Below, piece by piece: positions 2,089 through 27,599 of a DNA stretch of 30,713 nt. Each line of letters opens with the position of its first letter. The first letter of the stretch is position 1. The position numbers were made by a program, and so were the translations under genes. The stretch spans positions 1 through 30,713 of IMG/VR virus record IMGVR_UViG_3300017989_000317; one strand, 5' to 3'. The notes under the pieces were generated by a model, which had not been told where the DNA came from, made no database searches, and saw only the letters and a program-made list of their open reading frames with translations. This DNA comes from a virus.

Positions 2089-3009
2089 TTACTTTTTCAC
2101 ACGAAGTAGGGTCTTAAACTCTTTTTTATCACAGGGTTTATCTTTGTCTACTTTAGCATTGAAAGAGAAGCCACTATCTTCAATAGGCAAATTCTCTAAT
2201 TCCTTTTCTGTTGGTGGGGGTACATTGTCGTTCAGTGCCCAAAGTACACCGGCCTTTTCGGCCCAACGGGCCATTCTCCTGACTGGAACCATAAGATTGA
2301 AACCTTCTCCAGCCCCTCTTACAATCATGCCGACGTATGCACCATTTTTCAAATACACACCGCCTCCAGAAGATCCTGGGAAGCTCGTAGCGGTTGTTTG
2401 GTCGTATTCTTCTTTGCCATCGTCAAGAACACGTCCAACTTGAGAAACAATACCACTGGTCATTGAGTTAGATCCTAGTTGTCCTAGCAAACTACCAACA
2501 TGATACACGTCTGTTCCGATGCTAGGAATCTTCTTGTCTTGATAGAAAACAACGCTAGCTGACACAAAATTGGTCTTTCGGACTCGCAGAAGGGCTAAGT
2601 CCTCTTGCTCATTATAGCGAATAACCTCGGCCTGCATTTTGAGTTCTCCTACCTTACGACCGTTCTCTACAAGTTCCTTGATAACATCTGCGTCGTCAAA
2701 CTTAACAACTATTCGCTGTGTACCGGTCTTTGAATCAATCACCTTCTTTTCTGTTCGTAAACTGTCTACGACATGAGCCGCAGTCCAAACAAAATTGACC
2801 TTAACATCTTTTCCGTTTCTCTTCATGGTGATTGTCTTAATGACTCCTGAACCTTCACCCATGCCAGAATTGACCGTCACAGAAATGTCTTGTAGATACT
2901 GGGCAACGTCATCTTGGGCCGGAAGGGTTTCTTTCCATGTCGCCTCACCCGCGAATGAGGTGGTGCAGAGCAAAAGTGCGACAAGCATCGCAACAACAAT
3001 TTTTCGCAT
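2089..3009 (-). CDS. Secreted trypsin-like serine protease, 306 aa
   Basis: The N-terminus is a signal peptide: MRKIV, a hydrophobic core AMLVALLL, then TTSFA|GEA as a likely signal peptidase I site (after A20). The chymotrypsin-fold triad is visible: His79 in WTAAHVVD, Asp137 in EQEDLALLRV, and Ser214 in SFPGSSGGGVY. No PDZ domain follows; a short C-terminal tail with 'PPPTEKELENLP' ends the protein. I chose the ATG at 3009 over upstream in-frame codons because it begins the signal peptide and is preceded by a GGAGAGAGAAAG purine stretch. It would act outside the cytoplasm (periplasm or surface) of the infected cell. It ends before the 2026-2063 terminator. No clear promoter is seen in the 187 nt shared with the divergent Hsp20 gene. 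Signal-peptide-bearing HtrA-like proteases are unusual for phages. Confidence 0.85.
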   Translation of the reverse strand: MRKIVVAMLVALLLCTTSFAGEATWKETLPAQDDVAQYLQDISVTVNSGMGEGSGVIKTITMKRNGKDVKVNFVWTAAHVVDSLRTEKKVIDSKTGTQRIVVKFDDADVIKELVENGRKVGELKMQAEVIRYNEQEDLALLRVRKTNFVSASVVFYQDKKIPSIGTDVYHVGSLLGQLGSNSMTSGIVSQVGRVLDDGKEEYDQTTATSFPGSSGGGVYLKNGAYVGMIVRGAGEGFNLMVPVRRMARWAEKAGVLWALNDNVPPPTEKELENLPIEDSGFSFNAKVDKDKPCDKKEFKTLLRVKK

Positions 3010-3109
3010 AACTTTCTCTCTCCATTTCTTAATTTGTAAGTGCCCTAAGCACTGGTTGGTTTTCAAACCTATTAGAGAGAGCATTGTAAAAATTTTTGAC
3101 CGAAAAACT

Positions 3110-3122
3110 CTAAATAAGATAG
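3110..3122 (+). promoter_or_regulatory. Late-promoter-like motif upstream of Hsp20
   Basis: CTAAATAAGATAG lies 75 nt before the Hsp20 start. The same 12 nt (CTAAATAAGATA) recur upstream of the minus-strand operon at 7064-7051. The core resembles the T4-family late promoter TATAAATA. A TTGACC at 3097-3102 precedes it, so a sigma70-like reading is also possible. Confidence 0.4.
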
Positions 3123-3196
3123 AGTCCGTGCCACACAGGGCGGGCGAAAAACCATGCACACTTTCGTGGTGGTTAATACAAGCTAAGGAGAAAAAA

Positions 3197-3727
3197 GTGT
3201 TAAAGAAAAAACTATTGAAGGAAATGTCTCCCTTCACACGCGACGAATTTGGTTCCCCTTTTAATCTCGAAATTGACAAGTTGTTCAACAACTTTTTCGG
3301 GAAACAATTCTTTGACGGGGTCAAGAAATCGAATTTCCCAAAACTGGATGCTTACTACACGGAAATACATGATTTTGGGCCCAATAAGGGCACCAAAAAT
3401 AAGTTGGTAGTAAATTTCGCCGTTGCAGGAGTCGAAAAAGACGATCTTGTTGTCAGAATTGACAATGATGTGGATTGTTTTGGAATCGACCGTGGCAACA
3501 TTCTAGAAGTTTCCGGCAAGATTTCTGAGCAGTATTCTTCGAAGAATGAGAAACAATGCCCAATACGAGAATTGGTCTCGGGTTCCTTCAAAAGACAACT
3601 ACGACTCCCCCCAGAGGTGGTGCCTGAGCCCGAGGCAACACTCAAGGATGGCATCTTGAGTCTGGTTTTTACTGTTAAAGAACCAGAACCCGAAGAACCG
3701 AAAGGCAAACGGATAGAAATTAAGTAA
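3197..3727 (+). CDS. Hsp20 family small heat shock protein, 176 aa
   Basis: The protein has a ~60-residue N-terminal arm (FGSPFNLEIDKLFNNFFGKQ), then an alpha-crystallin domain. The sHSP features are FAVAGVEKDDLVVRIDND (the 'PG..kedi.v...' block), ILEVSGKI, SFKRQLRLPPEV, and ATLKDGILSLVF, the family's 'A.l.dGvL.i' signature. A C-terminal IEIK stands in for the I-x-I tail motif that mediates oligomer contacts. The GTG start at 3197 has AAGGAG 6 nt upstream. Small heat shock proteins bind unfolding proteins without ATP and are known in T4-like cyanophages, where they are proposed to help fold virion proteins. The gene is isolated: divergent from the protease and closed by the palindromic terminator at 3738-3771. 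Confidence 0.88.
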   Translation: MLKKKLLKEMSPFTRDEFGSPFNLEIDKLFNNFFGKQFFDGVKKSNFPKLDAYYTEIHDFGPNKGTKNKLVVNFAVAGVEKDDLVVRIDNDVDCFGIDRGNILEVSGKISEQYSSKNEKQCPIRELVSGSFKRQLRLPPEVVPEPEATLKDGILSLVFTVKEPEPEEPKGKRIEIK

Positions 3728-4702: not shown

Positions 4703-6271
4703 CTAGAGTTCAAACTTATCGAACTGCTTTCTCAACAATTCTCGATTGATTGCCTGAACCACAGCGGAACGTGATTGTGGTGCGACCATGTGTTGTCCTC
4801 TTCTGACGATTTCGGGATGGACTCCAGCTTTGTGGAAACCTTTGTAATCGCAGTAGGCACAACCTTCTCCTTCACATTCGGGGCAACGGCTTCGCTCCAT
4901 CCACTGCACCAGTTGTTCGGGATCTGGCTGGAAAGCTGCAAATTTCTTTACGTCGGCTCTCCATTTGGGGCCCATTGTGCTTTTGATCCTTCCTTCATCG
5001 TTTGTATCAAAAAGTTCCACCCATTGTCGAATCTGTTTCTTGGTTATGCCCGAGACAGTTCTGTGTCTCAGCAGCGGTTCTAGATCGTCGGGATCGAAGT
5101 CTTTCAGATTGACCAGGAAGATCACGGCATCTCGTTCTCGGGTCGGCCAGCCAGTGGGTTTGTCTCCACGCTTGGGGCCCAAGACTTCAGCGATCTTTTG
5201 GACAGGATTATCTTGCAGAATCCAGGCCAAAGCGAGGATCTTATCCTCTTTATCCCTCAGTTGCGGCGGAACATTGAAGTTAAGTTGTACACCGGGGAAG
5301 ACTTTGTTGATATATCCAGTTCTGTGGTAGATTGATAAGAAGCATTTAGGATCTACATCTTTGCTGGTAAGACCGGAGGTAAATTCTTTCCTGACCCGTT
5401 CCAGAGCTACACCTTCTAAATCTTTAAATTCAGGAAGTGCCTTTTCGATATCTTCGTGCATTCGAAAGCCTTTGCCGAAGCGACAATGAAATCGAATTGC
5501 CCTAAGAGTTCTCAATGGATCTTCTTGAAATCTTTCTCTTGCATTTCCAACCGCTCTAACGATTCCGTTGCGAATATCATGCCAGCCATTATGGGTCGGG
5601 TCATAAAGTTTGCTGTTGTCGCCCTCGGAATTTGTGAGTTCGATGTACATTGCGTTGATCGTAAGGTCTCTTCTCTTGGCATCTTCGACCGGGTTATCTA
5701 CGAAGTCCACTTCTGCCTGTCCCTCAGTTACTTTGGCATCTCTTCGGAATGTCGCGATTTCAAACGATTGACCATTGACGGTTGCTTGAATCACAAATGG
5801 TTTTCGTTCTTTGCTATTGTCACGACCAATGAGGACCCATTTTTTGTTGTCACCTCGTTCAGCACGTTTGGGTCGGAAGCCCAATTGAAATTCAGGACCT
5901 TGTTTCCCACTTCGGTCATACACTCCATCTTCGGGCACCTTAAATCCAGCGGTATCAAGAATCCTAGCGATCTGGGCGGGGGTGGCATTGGTTGCTAGAT
6001 CGAAATCATGAGGAGTTTTACCTCTCAGGAAATCACGAACGGCACCGCCGACCAGAAACAGGGATTTCTTCGGCATCGTTACTGCTTTCGACGTATCCTG
6101 AGTTAACGGAATCTTGTTGCTGTTCTGAAATGCCTCAATGATCGGCTTGAGATTTTTGCAGTGAATCTCAGGATTGAAACCTTTGGCTAGTTTTCGATAC
6201 TCTTGCTTCCAGTCTTTTTCAACCGATTCCTCTGCTTCTTTGATAACAAGAAAATCTTTGAACGATTGCAT
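4703..6271 (-). CDS. CCA-adding tRNA nucleotidyltransferase / poly(A) polymerase family, 522 aa
   Basis: This is a class II nucleotidyltransferase. The motifs are LFLVGGAVRDFLRG (residues 71-84), the catalytic pair D89/D91 in HDFDLAT, RRDLTINAM (200-208), and the head/neck block LYDPTHNGWHDI ... EDPLRTLRAIRFHCRF. The family adds CCA to tRNA 3' ends or A tails to RNA using CTP/ATP; the sequence alone does not tell which. Three oddities stand out. There is an insertion around residues 130-170 between motifs. A C-terminal four-cysteine site (C463, C466, C471, C474; CPECEGEGCAYC) looks zinc-binding. A ~60-residue N-terminal extension begins MQSFKDFLVIKEAEES, matching the neighbouring gene's N-terminus and resembling the T4 capsid-targeting tag. 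The ATG at 6271 follows GGAG and lies 8 nt after the preceding stop. Confidence 0.88.
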   Translation of the reverse strand: MQSFKDFLVIKEAEESVEKDWKQEYRKLAKGFNPEIHCKNLKPIIEAFQNSNKIPLTQDTSKAVTMPKKSLFLVGGAVRDFLRGKTPHDFDLATNATPAQIARILDTAGFKVPEDGVYDRSGKQGPEFQLGFRPKRAERGDNKKWVLIGRDNSKERKPFVIQATVNGQSFEIATFRRDAKVTEGQAEVDFVDNPVEDAKRRDLTINAMYIELTNSEGDNSKLYDPTHNGWHDIRNGIVRAVGNARERFQEDPLRTLRAIRFHCRFGKGFRMHEDIEKALPEFKDLEGVALERVRKEFTSGLTSKDVDPKCFLSIYHRTGYINKVFPGVQLNFNVPPQLRDKEDKILALAWILQDNPVQKIAEVLGPKRGDKPTGWPTRERDAVIFLVNLKDFDPDDLEPLLRHRTVSGITKKQIRQWVELFDTNDEGRIKSTMGPKWRADVKKFAAFQPDPEQLVQWMERSRCPECEGEGCAYCDYKGFHKAGVHPEIVRRGQHMVAPQSRSAVVQAINRELLRKQFDKFEL

Positions 6272-6279
6272 GTATTCTC

Positions 6280-7035
6280 CTATCTTTCCGCTATAGCTTG
6301 TGCCCGTTGTTGTGCTATATCAGCACCAATACGTGGGAACATTCCGATTATCGTCATTGTGGGTTCAGGACCTTCGGGATTGATTTTGGGTTCCCACTTT
6401 GCATCATAGAAATCAACGTTATCTAGTTGTCCGTTTTTTTGCAATGTTTCGTACATATCCCGTTGGATCATGGCCCGAGTAAAAGCAATTGCTGCTTCTC
6501 TTTCGTTGACATCATCCAAACGAGGCGAAACAACCACATATTGCTTAGAGTTTTCTTTGAATTTCTGGGAGAGTTTAAGATGGTGCCGCATAGCAGATTC
6601 TCGTTCGCCCATTTGTTTGAATTGGTCATGAAATTCCCAGTCAATTTGACAGTCGCAATTAGGTTCGCATCCAGGGAAACAATTTTTGTTTTTAATTGCA
6701 ACGAGTTGAAGCGGTAGAGTAATATCGAGAATGACGTGCCTATCTGTAAACTGCTGTCTAATGCCCTGCCAAGCAAAAGTCGGTACTTGTCCTGGATCTC
6801 GTCCCAGTGAATCCTTAAAAGATTGGCCTATTGCTGCTATGGGGGCGGATACTAGTTTTTCGGCTGCTGTTTGTACTTTCCGAGGTTCGTGCCCAAACGT
6901 CGCAGACGGCCCCCAATATTGACTTGTGTTAGAAACAAAATTTCTATCCGGTTTTGGTCGTTGAGTGCCGCCCGCTTTTCCGGGCGAGGCCGCTTTCGCT
7001 TCTTGCAACTTCATCCACTCGCTAAATGACTTCAT
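6280..7035 (-). CDS. Unknown protein with capsid-targeting-like N-terminus, 251 aa
   Basis: The family is not recognised. The N-terminus MKSFSEWMKLQEAKAA aligns without gaps with the nucleotidyltransferase start (MQSFKDFLVIKEAEES) and ends with an LQE|A site like the T4 prohead protease consensus. Residues ~14-35 are a Gly/Pro/Lys-rich linker. The body has a CFPGCEPNCDCQ cysteine cluster (about residues 119-130), a charged helix (DQFKQMGERESAMRHHLKLSQKFKENS), YVVVSPRLDD and a C-terminal FPRIGADIAQQRAQAIAER helix. The start follows CGGAGAAGAT. It leads the leftward operon; a late-promoter-like CTAAATAAGATAAG lies just upstream at 7064-7051. It may be an internal virion protein packaged with DNA, which is inference from the tag. 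Confidence 0.7.
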   Translation of the reverse strand: MKSFSEWMKLQEAKAASPGKAGGTQRPKPDRNFVSNTSQYWGPSATFGHEPRKVQTAAEKLVSAPIAAIGQSFKDSLGRDPGQVPTFAWQGIRQQFTDRHVILDITLPLQLVAIKNKNCFPGCEPNCDCQIDWEFHDQFKQMGERESAMRHHLKLSQKFKENSKQYVVVSPRLDDVNEREAAIAFTRAMIQRDMYETLQKNGQLDNVDFYDAKWEPKINPEGPEPTMTIIGMFPRIGADIAQQRAQAIAER

Positions 7036-7050
7036 ATCTTCTCCGATTGT

Positions 7051-7064
7051 CTTATCTTATTTAG
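7051..7064 (-). promoter_or_regulatory. Late-promoter-like motif upstream of the leftward operon
   Basis: On the minus strand CTAAATAAGATAAG ends 16 nt before the ATG at 7035. Twelve nucleotides are identical to the motif upstream of Hsp20 (3110-3121), the only other gene here with it. The core resembles T4 late promoters (TATAAATA). It would start transcription just before the GGAG ribosome site. Confidence 0.45.
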
Positions 7065-7129: not shown

Positions 7130-7594
7130 ATGAAAAAAGATCCAAAAGCTTCGGGTGATCTCATCAAACCCGATGAGAATTTGCCCACTTTGGCACCAGG
7201 GAATCATCTCGATCTGATAAGCGATGAGAATCTTCTAGGTGTATATGAGGAAATTATCTCAAATTTACGCCAGGACAGGCAACAAACCTCAGAATTGTTA
7301 GATGAGTTCTCAGAAATGGTCATCAACGGAGGAGATGCGTCGAATGCCAGTAAAGAAGCTTTGGTGAATTTGGTTCGCCATAAGATTGATACCGCCGATA
7401 AAATGGCGAAGGTGGCCGAATTGATGACCCGTATCAAATTGAAACAACCCTACGGTGAATCAAAGGGCTATCTGAATAAGGGACAAACTTCTGGCAACAA
7501 CACGATAAATATCTACGATCAAGGCGGGCTCAATAAGCGGGCACTACTAGATACTATCGAAAAAGCCCAAAAGAAGAAGAAGGGGAATAAATGA
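7130..7594 (+). CDS. Unknown 154-aa phage protein, possibly small terminase
   Basis: This is the first gene of the rightward block. The centre is helical (residues ~35-105, with VYEEIISNLRQDRQQTSELL and LVRHKIDTADKMAKVAELMT), followed by a polar linker, a short NTINIYDQ strand and a Lys-rich C-terminus (EKAQKKKKGNK). Helical core plus a short beta segment with 'NTxNIY' and a basic tail is reminiscent of small terminase subunits, but no DNA-binding motif is certain and no large terminase follows. Treat this as a suggestion. There is no ribosome binding site before the ATG (GTATATACTGTACC), unlike nearly all other genes here. The stop overlaps the next ATG (ATGA). Confidence 0.55.
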   Translation: MKKDPKASGDLIKPDENLPTLAPGNHLDLISDENLLGVYEEIISNLRQDRQQTSELLDEFSEMVINGGDASNASKEALVNLVRHKIDTADKMAKVAELMTRIKLKQPYGESKGYLNKGQTSGNNTINIYDQGGLNKRALLDTIEKAQKKKKGNK

Positions 7595-8925
7595 AAAATT
7601 ACGTTTTAGAGGATTGGCTAGGACAACTTAACGAACAGGGAGGATTCGGAGGCGATATTCCTGCTGCTGGTGGTCAACCAGATCCTTTTGGTATGACTCC
7701 ACAAAGCGATCCCTATGGAGTCGGTGCAATACCTCCCGATCCGAACATTGCTGATCCGGCTCAAGGCATGCCTCCTGAGCAAATGGGGGCCGAACAGCCG
7801 GTTGATGTGAGCCAAGATCCCCAGGTTCCAGAGATGCCCGAGGAAGAAGAAGCGACGGAAGATGATTTTGAAATTTGGAAGAAGAACTTTTTTAAGGAAT
7901 CCATTAAGGGCGATGTTCAAGCCATGAAAGAATCTATTGCTCCCTGGCTGGAAAAAGAAGAAGGGACGCTGGATTCTTATCAGAGCAAGTTCATCAATGA
8001 TAATTGGAATATTTTGCTGATAAGGGAGAACAACACCAATGTGGACAAGGCGTCCAAAGAGATTCGAAAAGCCATCAAAGAACAACTAGATCGTAATAAT
8101 CCAGCTACAACAGTTGCGGATCACATGGCTCGCGTCATGGAACCCGTACCCCTCTTAAACAACAAGCTAATTCAGTTTCTTGGTTACGGTGCCCTAAAAG
8201 GCGAATTACATCGCAAATATTTGGCCGCTTTGCTGGGGGCTGTTCAAGTGAGTAGTAGTCCCGATCAAGAGAATATTGTTTTCAATGAAGAAGACTATGC
8301 CATCATGATTTGCACTCGCATGAATGCCGACTGGGGAAATTTAGCTCTCGGAACATGGTGCTTAAAGGAAGATGATCCCGAACGATATCTTTCGGAACCA
8401 GAACTCAAAAGATTGGAAGAGGGCAGCCCCGAAGAGAAAGAGGTTTTAAGAAGAAGATTGGTCATTGAATCTATCGCAAAAGAATTTGATACAAAGGCAT
8501 ATCTCATCAATATTGTAGGGGAAGATGGAACCATCTATTTGATCGGTTGGGACATGTCCAACAGCTTGAGGGCCGCTTATGCCGAAGGCAAGGTGGTTGT
8601 GCGAACACGTAAGTCTGATAACTCGGAAGCAATGATTGATGATGATGGAAGAATTGTCCCGATGATCGACTTGAGCATTTATTTCGTGAAGGAAACAGGG
8701 GAACAGGACGAAGAGGGCAATCCTCAAATGGATGAAATCGAGTTCATGCAACGACGTAACGGCAGTCTGTTTTGGACAGCGGGATTGCAAACCATACGAG
8801 ATGCCTCCAGTGCAATGCAGGGACTTAGATTCAAAGAAATACCCTATCAGGGTAATCCAAGCGACCTCAAAGTCCTGAAGAGATGTGTTTATTCAGCCCA
8901 CGACTTAATAATGAAGGCATGTTAA
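7591..8925 (+). CDS. Putative virion structural protein with disordered N-terminus, 444 aa
   Basis: I recognise no family. After MKNYVLEDWLGQLNEQ comes a ~75-residue Pro/Gly/Gln/Asp-rich disordered stretch (residues 18-90, repeated 'DPFG', 'DPYG', 'MPPEQM' elements) ending in an acidic EEEEATEDDFE run. The rest is a folded domain of ~350 residues: a helical part (EIWKKNFFKESIKGDVQAMK onward) then mixed alpha/beta with YLINIVGEDGTIYLIGW. No catalytic motif is seen. ATGA overlap with the previous gene and 5-9 nt spacing to the next place it in the morphogenesis operon. The start resembles, but does not exactly match, the tagged N-termini of the neighbouring leftward genes. Confidence 0.7.
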   Translation: MKNYVLEDWLGQLNEQGGFGGDIPAAGGQPDPFGMTPQSDPYGVGAIPPDPNIADPAQGMPPEQMGAEQPVDVSQDPQVPEMPEEEEATEDDFEIWKKNFFKESIKGDVQAMKESIAPWLEKEEGTLDSYQSKFINDNWNILLIRENNTNVDKASKEIRKAIKEQLDRNNPATTVADHMARVMEPVPLLNNKLIQFLGYGALKGELHRKYLAALLGAVQVSSSPDQENIVFNEEDYAIMICTRMNADWGNLALGTWCLKEDDPERYLSEPELKRLEEGSPEEKEVLRRRLVIESIAKEFDTKAYLINIVGEDGTIYLIGWDMSNSLRAAYAEGKVVVRTRKSDNSEAMIDDDGRIVPMIDLSIYFVKETGEQDEEGNPQMDEIEFMQRRNGSLFWTAGLQTIRDASSAMQGLRFKEIPYQGNPSDLKVLKRCVYSAHDLIMKAC

Positions 8926-8934
8926 GGAGATATG

Positions 8935-9444
8935 ATGGCAACTTTTCGAGAGTTTGTAGACAAGAAAGCTAGAAAGGCTAAAAAAGAACTTGGTATTGTT
9001 GAGAAGATCCTTTCTCAAGCTGGAATTGCGGTTAAAAACTTTCTCGATGAAGACGAACCGTATATCTATGTGGAAAATCCTTCCGGTAATCTGCCATTTG
9101 AAGGAGTCAGAGTCTACAAAATTGGTGATGATATAGCCTACCGTGTTCAAAAAGAAGAAAAGACCCATCCGTATGGCAAAGCCTATCTTCTTGATGTCGA
9201 AGGCATGTATGATGATTTGATTTCGGACAACGTGAACGAAGAAAATGCAGGCAAAACTATTATCAAGGCAATCAATAGCGAGATGCGAAATTTTTTCACC
9301 AAAAGTGCCGAAGCCGAAAGAGACGTTAGGGCTGCCGAACTAGATCGTCAAACCGATCCAATGGGCAGGGTGCAGATAAGAAGCACGACCGGAACCGATT
9401 ATGCGAATACGATTCAAAATACAACAACGTATTCTCCAGTCTAA
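8935..9444 (+). CDS. Unknown virion-associated protein, 169 aa
   Basis: Two ATGs are adjacent (8932, 8935). AAGGAG at 8924-8929 lies 2 nt from the first and 5 nt from the second, so I prefer the second. The protein then begins MATFREFVDKKARKAKKELG, a basic amphipathic helix with the same M-x-[ST]-F-x-[ED]-[FW] pattern as two leftward genes but without a protease-like site. Next comes a mixed domain (YIYVENPSGNLPFEGVRVYK, DDIAYRVQKEEKTHPYGKAY). After it there is a helix and a polar C-terminal tail (RSTTGTDYANTIQNTTTYSPV). No family is recognised. It could be a small structural or head-tail protein. Confidence 0.7.
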   Translation: MATFREFVDKKARKAKKELGIVEKILSQAGIAVKNFLDEDEPYIYVENPSGNLPFEGVRVYKIGDDIAYRVQKEEKTHPYGKAYLLDVEGMYDDLISDNVNEENAGKTIIKAINSEMRNFFTKSAEAERDVRAAELDRQTDPMGRVQIRSTTGTDYANTIQNTTTYSPV

Positions 9445-26788: not shown

Positions 26789-27066
26789 TGAAAAAGATTT
26801 TTGAAATACAAGAGGTTTACGATCCTGAGACCGATCAACAATACCGGGCTCTCTCGATAGATCGAGAAATCTTCGACTGGGGCTTTGGGCCCGATGAAAT
26901 TAAAAAGGCCATGAAATTTTGTGGTGGAGATGGTTTCTTGGGCAAGACAGTTCAAGGCGATGTTTGTCGTTTCTTTCTGGAGAGTCTTGGAGAGGTGGTT
27001 GGCAGACCGGTAACCCTTGCCGAAGTGAACGAAGCGATAGAGAAAGGTTATTTGGAATGCAACTAG
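26788..27066 (+). CDS. Unknown small protein, 92 aa
   Basis: The ATG overlaps the previous TAA (TAATG). The sequence is MKKIFEIQEVYDPETDQQYR followed by a helical, acidic middle (FGPDEIKKAMKFCGGDGF, VQGDVCRFFLESLGEVVGRP) and a C-terminal LAEVNEAIEKGYLECN. No family is recognised. It overlaps the SET-domain gene by 10 nt, so the two are likely translated together; it might be a partner or substrate of that enzyme, which is only a positional guess. Confidence 0.65.
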   Translation: MKKIFEIQEVYDPETDQQYRALSIDREIFDWGFGPDEIKKAMKFCGGDGFLGKTVQGDVCRFFLESLGEVVGRPVTLAEVNEAIEKGYLECN

Positions 27067-27599
27067 TAGAGGAAACAGACAAGAGATTCTACCTAAAAGA
27101 ATCTACGGTGCCTAATGCAGGGTTGGGAGTATTTGCTGCTGAACCTCTGAAAGCTGGAGATTATCTGGAAATCATTGGTATACAGGTAAAAACGGGTTCT
27201 ATTGCGGATAAGTGTACTGCTTATGCCGACCGATACAAGTTCGCGGCATCGGGCAAATTGGTAAAAAAGCGACGAACAACGGATTTCACCCGAAAGGTTG
27301 TTCCCTTGGGTTACGGCGGCATGGTCAATCACGCTCCTAGTCCTGAATTGGAAAATGCGATGATCGACTATCATAAGGGTCCAACCAGAAACAAAAATGC
27401 AGGGCAACCGATATATCGATTCGTTCGCAACATCGCTCAAGACGAAGAGATTTTGGGAAATTACGGAGAACAGTGGGAGAAGATTATGGGTTGGGCCGAG
27501 GACAAGGCCGATGAACTTGGCAAGGATTGGAAAACCTTTTTGTCCTACGACCTATATAATCTCAAGGAACTGATGGGCGAGTTTGCCTCCAAGGAGTGA
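27057..27599 (+). CDS. SET-domain protein, putative lysine methyltransferase, 180 aa
   Basis: Compact SET domain. AGLGVFAAEPLKAGDYLEII (21-40) matches the opening 'G.Gvfa...i..G..i.ey.G'. MVNHA (89-93) matches 'NHsc' at the cofactor site. RNIAQDEEILGNYGEQW (124-140) matches '..i..geEl..dYg', with Tyr136 in the catalytic-tyrosine position. The expected Ser/Cys after NH is replaced by Ala. There is no cysteine-rich post-SET; the C-terminal ~40 residues are a Trp-rich helix. SET enzymes move a methyl group from S-adenosylmethionine to lysine in proteins. I chose the ATG at 27057 because it overlaps the upstream gene by 10 nt and opens the domain; longer in-frame reading would run inside that gene. 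Its last codons supply AAGGAG for the next gene. It is unusual within a tail operon. Confidence 0.8.
   Translation: MQLVEETDKRFYLKESTVPNAGLGVFAAEPLKAGDYLEIIGIQVKTGSIADKCTAYADRYKFAASGKLVKKRRTTDFTRKVVPLGYGGMVNHAPSPELENAMIDYHKGPTRNKNAGQPIYRFVRNIAQDEEILGNYGEQWEKIMGWAEDKADELGKDWKTFLSYDLYNLKELMGEFASKE

Follow-up and report, generated by a model that had tools for sequence, protein, structure and literature searches.

A capsid-targeting-like N-terminal tag shared by a tRNA nucleotidyltransferase, its neighbour and many other proteins of huge T4-related phages

The two-gene unit and its tagged proteins

The window, i.e. the whole 30,713-base IMG/VR record, is a fragment of a contractile-tailed phage, in which baseplate-type and other tail genes are present, while no head genes were found within its 30.7 kb. 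Beside the baseplate and tail genes lie two minus-strand ORFs (Table 1), the second of which, coding for a tRNA nucleotidyltransferase, starts 8 bases downstream of its neighbour. The sequence-only reading had claimed for positions 6236–7035 (the neighbour ORF together with the 12 tag codons of the nucleotidyltransferase) that both genes share a 12-residue N-terminal tag with an E12/A13 site, and this was confirmed by the ORFs and by a gapless alignment with M1, S3, F4, E12 and A13 in common. Both tags have the form F4-x-x-(F/W)7, represented by the pairs F4/F7 and F4/W7, followed by (I/L)-x-E12/A13 in the form of IKE/A and LQE/A.

Table 1. Positions of the two-gene unit, its signals and the third tagged gene in the window
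Feature	Position	Strand	Remarks
Neighbour ORF	6280-7035	-	251 aa, start MKSFSEWMKLQEAKA
tRNA nucleotidyltransferase ORF	4703-6271	-	522 aa, start MQSFKDFLVIKEAEE
Neighbour tag, residues 1-12	7000..7035	-	MKSFSEWMKLQE; predicted cut E12/A13, then AKA
Nucleotidyltransferase tag, residues 1-12	6236..6271	-	MQSFKDFLVIKE; predicted cut E12/A13, then AEE
Neighbour protein body	6280..6999	-	no known family
Nucleotidyltransferase body	4703..6235	-	class II CCA-adding/poly(A) polymerase superfamily
GGAG, Shine-Dalgarno-like, of the neighbour	7041..7044	-	read directly
GGAG, Shine-Dalgarno-like, of the nucleotidyltransferase	6277..6280	-	overlaps the last base of the neighbour stop codon
TAAATA, late-promoter-like core	7058..7063	-	22 bases upstream of the neighbour's ATG; candidate promoter for both genes
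Third tagged gene, MATFREFVDKK	8932-9444 (start also given as 8935)	+	function not assigned

The nucleotidyltransferase body matched Pfam PolyA_pol (3.6e-26) and phrog_2244 of the PHROG collection (2.5e-48), a PDB profile search produced matches to CCA-adding enzymes, and the Foldseek search with the structural model retrieved the human mitochondrial CCA-adding enzyme (4x4w, 1.2e-15). Its catalytic motifs are intact (GGAVRD...DFD, RRDLTIN), and the GG-x-(V)-RD...DxD, RRDxTxN and DxxRxxR motifs are all present together with the fold of the class II CCA-adding/poly(A) polymerase superfamily. The catalytic domain and motifs are like those of class II CCA-adding enzymes and of the phrog_2244 phage nucleotidyltransferases, but the window enzyme has in addition the N-terminal tag, a folded segment at residues 21–69 and a Cys-rich stretch (CPECEGEGCAYC) close to the C-terminus. 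In the AlphaFold prediction, residues 4–19 had a pLDDT below 50 and lay outside the fold, with a short helix at 5–11, and the well-predicted body started at approximately residue 21; residues 21–69 are, according to this model, an extra folded group-specific segment separate from the tag.

For comparison, a nine-member group was used, consisting of the window, seven related viral contigs and LR756511, a complete 595-kb huge-phage record and the best named relative of the window. All nine nucleotidyltransferases of the group were tagged, and F4 and E12 were the sole invariant columns before P34, despite an overall identity of only 27–35% among some of the enzymes. The enzymes of the phages phiM12, Atu_ph07, MD18 and Vibrio D181, which do not belong to the group, were untagged and started 5–25 residues before VGG, while two more huge-phage nucleotidyltransferases began in a tag-like manner with Y-x-x-F-L-E-S. 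The finding which would have spoken against a tag, namely that the first 15 residues are part of a conserved folded domain, turned out the opposite way: these residues are not part of the fold, and the phage enzymes of other groups do not have them. The expectation that untagged relatives would start near residue 66 held roughly, since VGG is at residue 74 in the window enzyme, but the folded body of the group enzymes begins already at about residue 21, leaving residues 21–69 as something other than tag. The DxD motif was degenerate in the nucleotidyltransferases of G005 (L210:7683-9134, NIE) and G013 (L203:12414-13877, NYD), both of which kept the tag; these two may be inactive relatives, and catalysis may, thus, not be the conserved function throughout the group.

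The neighbour had no Pfam match and only a weak PHROG match. An orthologue with 34–35% identity was present in G028 (MKTFKKWLVLREA), in which F4, W7, L10, E12 and A13 are identical. Close relatives were found neither in phage records nor by peptide patterns, and one relative (L052) turned up only through the scan for the tag itself. A structure predicted from the two-sequence alignment was too low in confidence (pLDDT 41) to be of use. The gene in this position was tagged in five genomes, whereby the protein bodies fall into two or more groups between which no similarity could be detected.

The third gene had been described as sharing the pattern but lacking a cleavage site. This is correct for the immediate vicinity of the tag, where (L/I)xE is absent; farther along the protein there is a possible site, I21-V22-E23/K24, albeit with K at P1'. 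Its orthologues in several relatives retain the tag, e.g. MKTFREFVDKK, and those inspected have (I/L)-x-E stretches at similar positions. A 444-aa protein with a Pro/Gly/Gln-rich linker, encoded at 7591-8925 on the plus strand, starts with MKNYVLEDWLGQLNEQ; its orthologues keep a related start, several with LNE/Q or INE/Q, and perhaps this is a tag variant with another spacing. The window also encodes a trypsin-like protease with a signal-peptide-like start (2089-3015, minus strand), an ORF resembling a small heat-shock protein (3111-3727, plus strand) and a SET-domain protein (27042-27599, plus strand; Pfam 2.2e-5).

Frequency and cargo of the tag

In LR756511, about 35 of the 962 ORFs were tagged against 2–3 expected; among the 702 ORFs of at least 100 aa, 30–32 matched the tag, compared to an expectation of 1.4–4.3 when N-termini are shuffled or Met positions inside the proteins are used. 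The nine-member group contained 85 matches in 2301 ORFs, a count made with a simple ORF caller on related genomes and, hence, not one of independent events, while neutrally chosen viral loci with a total of 701 kb contained none in 1045 ORFs. The whole viral collection was further scanned for a ribosome-binding site followed by ATG and the tag, with permuted codon orders as a control. The pattern MKTFx.W occurred at 36 loci and its permuted version at 2; for MKTFxEF the numbers were 92 and 3, making in total 128 gene-start tags against 5 in all viral contigs. Chance similarity was rejected on the basis of the permuted-pattern and neutral-locus controls.

The tagged proteins formed about 60 clusters without detectable similarity outside the tag. 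Position 10 is free in the search pattern, yet Glu10 was present in 27 of the 41 MKTFxEF cluster representatives (66%), compared to a background of approximately 6%, and [LI]8-x-E10, the geometry of T4 IPII/IPIII, in 22 of the 41. Roughly half of the tagged proteins, and no more, had an (L/I)xE within residues 7–25.

The domains carried behind the tag were diverse. Pfam identified an RNA_ligase (8.3e-34, G028), HAD_SAK_1 (1.6e-15 in LR756511 and 1.1e-8 in G020), tRNA_lig_CPD (7.7e-9, LR756511), 2_5_RNA_ligase2 (2.3e-10, G002), RF-1 (8.2e-15, G020), NADAR (2.3e-19, LR756511), AAA_33/AAA_18 kinases (G005, G002) and a Peptidase_C39 (LR756511), with ART-PolyVal and 2H-SAK below the cut-off; many further tagged proteins had no known domain. 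The possibility that RNA repair genes are always tagged was rejected, as only one of six RNA ligase-family matches was tagged and several 2H phosphoesterases were untagged. Because of these untagged enzymes, RNA repair can be said to recur in the tagged set, but not to be a rule. The RF-1 protein, at the L180/L181 boundary (G020:19557-20030), is release-factor-like and includes GGQ; if injected, it could rescue stalled ribosomes.

The HAD phosphatase adjoining the nucleotidyltransferase was tagged in four relatives (LR756511, G001, G020 and G023) and untagged in three (G002, G005 and G013), indicating that the tag is detachable. Its separability from the folded cargo is also evident from the low pLDDT of residues 4–19 and from the untagged phage nucleotidyltransferases. 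Taken together with the bodies of the neighbour, which diverge while the tag stays, the HAD pattern and the untagged outside enzymes point to a detachable module under its own selection.

Head genes, promoters and virion proteins in related phages

In LR756511, the genes for gp21 (Peptidase S77, E 6.7e-28), a gp22-like scaffold and gp23 (E 5e-87) were adjacent and in the T4 order, with portal/terminase-like genes upstream of this cluster; gp22, portal and terminase were assigned from position and appearance. A second, divergent Peptidase_S77 match of 34.8 bits was located at 242621-242989 on the minus strand of the same record (locus L021), possibly representing a diverged prohead-protease paralogue. 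Among contigs above 50 kb, S77 was present in 12 of 26 tagged compared to 3 of 19 neutral ones; with p = 0.054 this co-occurrence is merely suggestive and was dropped as proof.

Of all 6-mers tested, TAAATA showed the strongest enrichment in front of the tagged genes (32/105 against 111/1833, p = 2e-13), while in the window overall it was not over-represented (10 sites against 18.5 expected). The exact T4 form TATAAATA was not enriched, the core of the group being TAAATA. The late promoters annotated in the record of the Dickeya phage LIMEstone1 have an almost identical core, CTAAATA or ATAAATA, and within the group TAAATA is also located upstream of genes with a scaffold-, terminase- or tail-like appearance. 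On these grounds, the tagged genes are probably late genes. In many of them, from LR756511 and its relatives (e.g. L171:13785 and L190:18022), TAAATA ended exactly 4 bases before the start codon and a Shine-Dalgarno sequence was absent, an arrangement which suggests leaderless late mRNAs in these phages.

One tagged family of the scan (L120) was conserved across the Ackermannviridae; its member in Klebsiella phage May starts with MKTFLEFFTEQ. LIMEstone1 encodes gp21, gp22 and gp23, and its published mass-spectrometry virion list includes the tagged ORF80, ORF82 and ORF173 (PMC3296691), which are also marked as confirmed virion proteins in the notes of its record. Their starts are MKPFIQYFNEQ, MSKPSFLQFMQE and MKTFLQYLQESE, respectively. 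Virion proteins made up 3 of the 8 tagged ORFs compared to 30 of the 213 untagged ones, and with p = 0.10 this enrichment was dropped as proof; LIMEstone1, thus, provides evidence for the existence of tagged proteins in particles and not for a predictive value of the tag. In ORF173 (L364:10190-10648), an ART-like YHGSN stretch comes directly after the tag, an arrangement reminiscent of a short injected enzyme of the Alt kind.

Probable capsid targeting and its alternatives

T4 IPII and IPIII start with MKTYQEFIAE/A and T4 IPI with MKTFKEFTSTTTPVSTITEAT, the latter being cleaved after ITE, which suggests that the spacing from the tag to the cleavage site can vary. The window proteins have the same start-anchored short tag with N-terminal aromatics at positions 4 and 7 and, shortly after, an (I/L)-x-E/A site, in front of unrelated cargo bodies; their predicted site at E12 lies between E10 of IPIII, two residues nearer to the start, and E19 of IPI. 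A further parallel with T4 is the gp21/gp22/gp23-type head module of the relative LR756511, and the late-type promoter core may be another. The assignment of the first 12 residues of both window proteins to the T4 internal-protein type of capsid-targeting sequences, already proposed in the sequence-only reading, is well supported at the sequence level by a modular tag on dozens of unrelated proteins, a conserved (L/I)xE, late-promoter-like sites and the gp21, gp22-like and gp23 genes of the relative. In T4 IPIII, published mutagenesis traced targeting mainly to residues 4 and 7 and processing to residues 8 and 10 (PMC9026906).

Packaging of the proteins by means of this tag is, on such grounds, likely. 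Late in infection, the aromatics at positions 4 and 7 would attach the protein to the scaffold core during its assembly, and a gp21-type prohead protease would then cut after E12, leaving the enzyme loose in the head with A13 as the new N-terminus. Packed alongside the DNA, it would enter the next host together with it, so that the nucleotidyltransferase would be available ahead of any phage gene expression. Its most likely task would be the re-tailing or repair of 3' ends of host or phage tRNAs damaged by host defences; such an injection with action on tRNA seems slightly less likely than not.

The tag could instead be a docking peptide for another compartment or complex that the phage makes within the infected cell, such as a replication or assembly site, and the proteins might never be packaged. 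Many partners could indeed be bound by a short N-terminal helix that is amphipathic and has two aromatics, and many of the tagged proteins are without a clear (L/I)xE site. However, the geometry of the tag equals that of the T4 capsid-targeting sequence, Glu10 is strongly conserved without a folding reason, LR756511 has the gp21-type head genes and tagged proteins occur in the LIMEstone1 virions, all of which makes this explanation unlikely. Less probable still would be that the tagged proteins belong to the normal structural or scaffold-binding components of the head, which remain in the virion or act while it is assembled, with the nucleotidyltransferase fold reused non-catalytically and nothing delivered to the host. 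The location of both genes beside baseplate and tail genes and the degenerate DxD in two relatives are in line with this, as is the fact that T4 prohead core proteins are gp21 substrates as well (PMC5694885), but the window enzyme retains its catalytic motifs, and the many distinct enzyme families behind the tag (RNA ligase, NADAR, release factor, ART) fit better with cargo.

A functionless resemblance of the N-termini, by chance or by common descent, might be considered from the facts that the two window tags have only five residues identical and that the relatives are not independent samples. It is highly improbable given the excess over the permuted patterns, the 60 unrelated clusters, the absence of matches among the neutral ORFs, and the invariance of F4 and E12 in enzymes with an overall identity down to 27%.

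Relative to T4, capsid targeting in these phages would involve an approximately tenfold larger set, i.e. about 35 ORFs in LR756511 against the three T4 internal proteins. The T4 internal proteins are GmrSD inhibitors (PMC12373910), while among the cargo here are a tRNA nucleotidyltransferase and domains for RNA repair; T4 has repair enzymes of its own, PseT and RnlA, but without the tag. T4 Alt, an injected ADP-ribosyltransferase, is another head-borne enzyme, to which the ART-like tagged proteins of G002, G005 and LIMEstone1 (ORF173) can be compared, but the tag is here of the internal-protein type and, in the window, precedes a tRNA nucleotidyltransferase. The inner-body and ejection proteins of the giant phages phiKZ and SPN3US are likewise packaged and injected, and trimmed by a prohead (morphogenetic) protease, as we infer for the window proteins; most of their propeptides exceed 100 residues (PMC5694885), in contrast to the 12 residues predicted here.

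The principle of capsid targeting is already known from T4, while in the open-access papers searched we found no description of a large, enzyme-rich tagged set in huge phages or of a tRNA nucleotidyltransferase tagged in nine out of nine cases. It is possible, although we lean to the doubtful side, that huge T4-related phages have a capsid-delivered set of enzymes with a shared cleavable tag, amounting to some 3–5% of their genes and including the tRNA nucleotidyltransferase, HAD-SAK phosphatase, 2H phosphoesterase, RNA ligase, P-loop kinases, release factor, NADAR and ART. Before the phage made its first transcript, such an injected kit would already repair RNA, rescue translation and rewire the host. 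As an address label, the tag would make it possible to predict, from nothing but the sequence, which of the hundreds of uncharacterised giant-phage proteins are carried in the head and reach the host first. To judge from the tagged nucleotidyltransferase, the particle may bring along a finished enzyme for repairing or tailing tRNA, which would be of consequence where the host defends itself by cutting tRNA.

Tag-like stretches were also observed away from the N-terminus. A 345-aa protein (L065) has MKTFSEFIEES at its N-terminus and an internal GTFEEFMVES before an acetyltransferase-like domain, and in LR756511 the minus-strand ORFs at 544812-545360 and 545369-545707 include KGFKEWLEEN and SNFADFVAQRDLMEAE.
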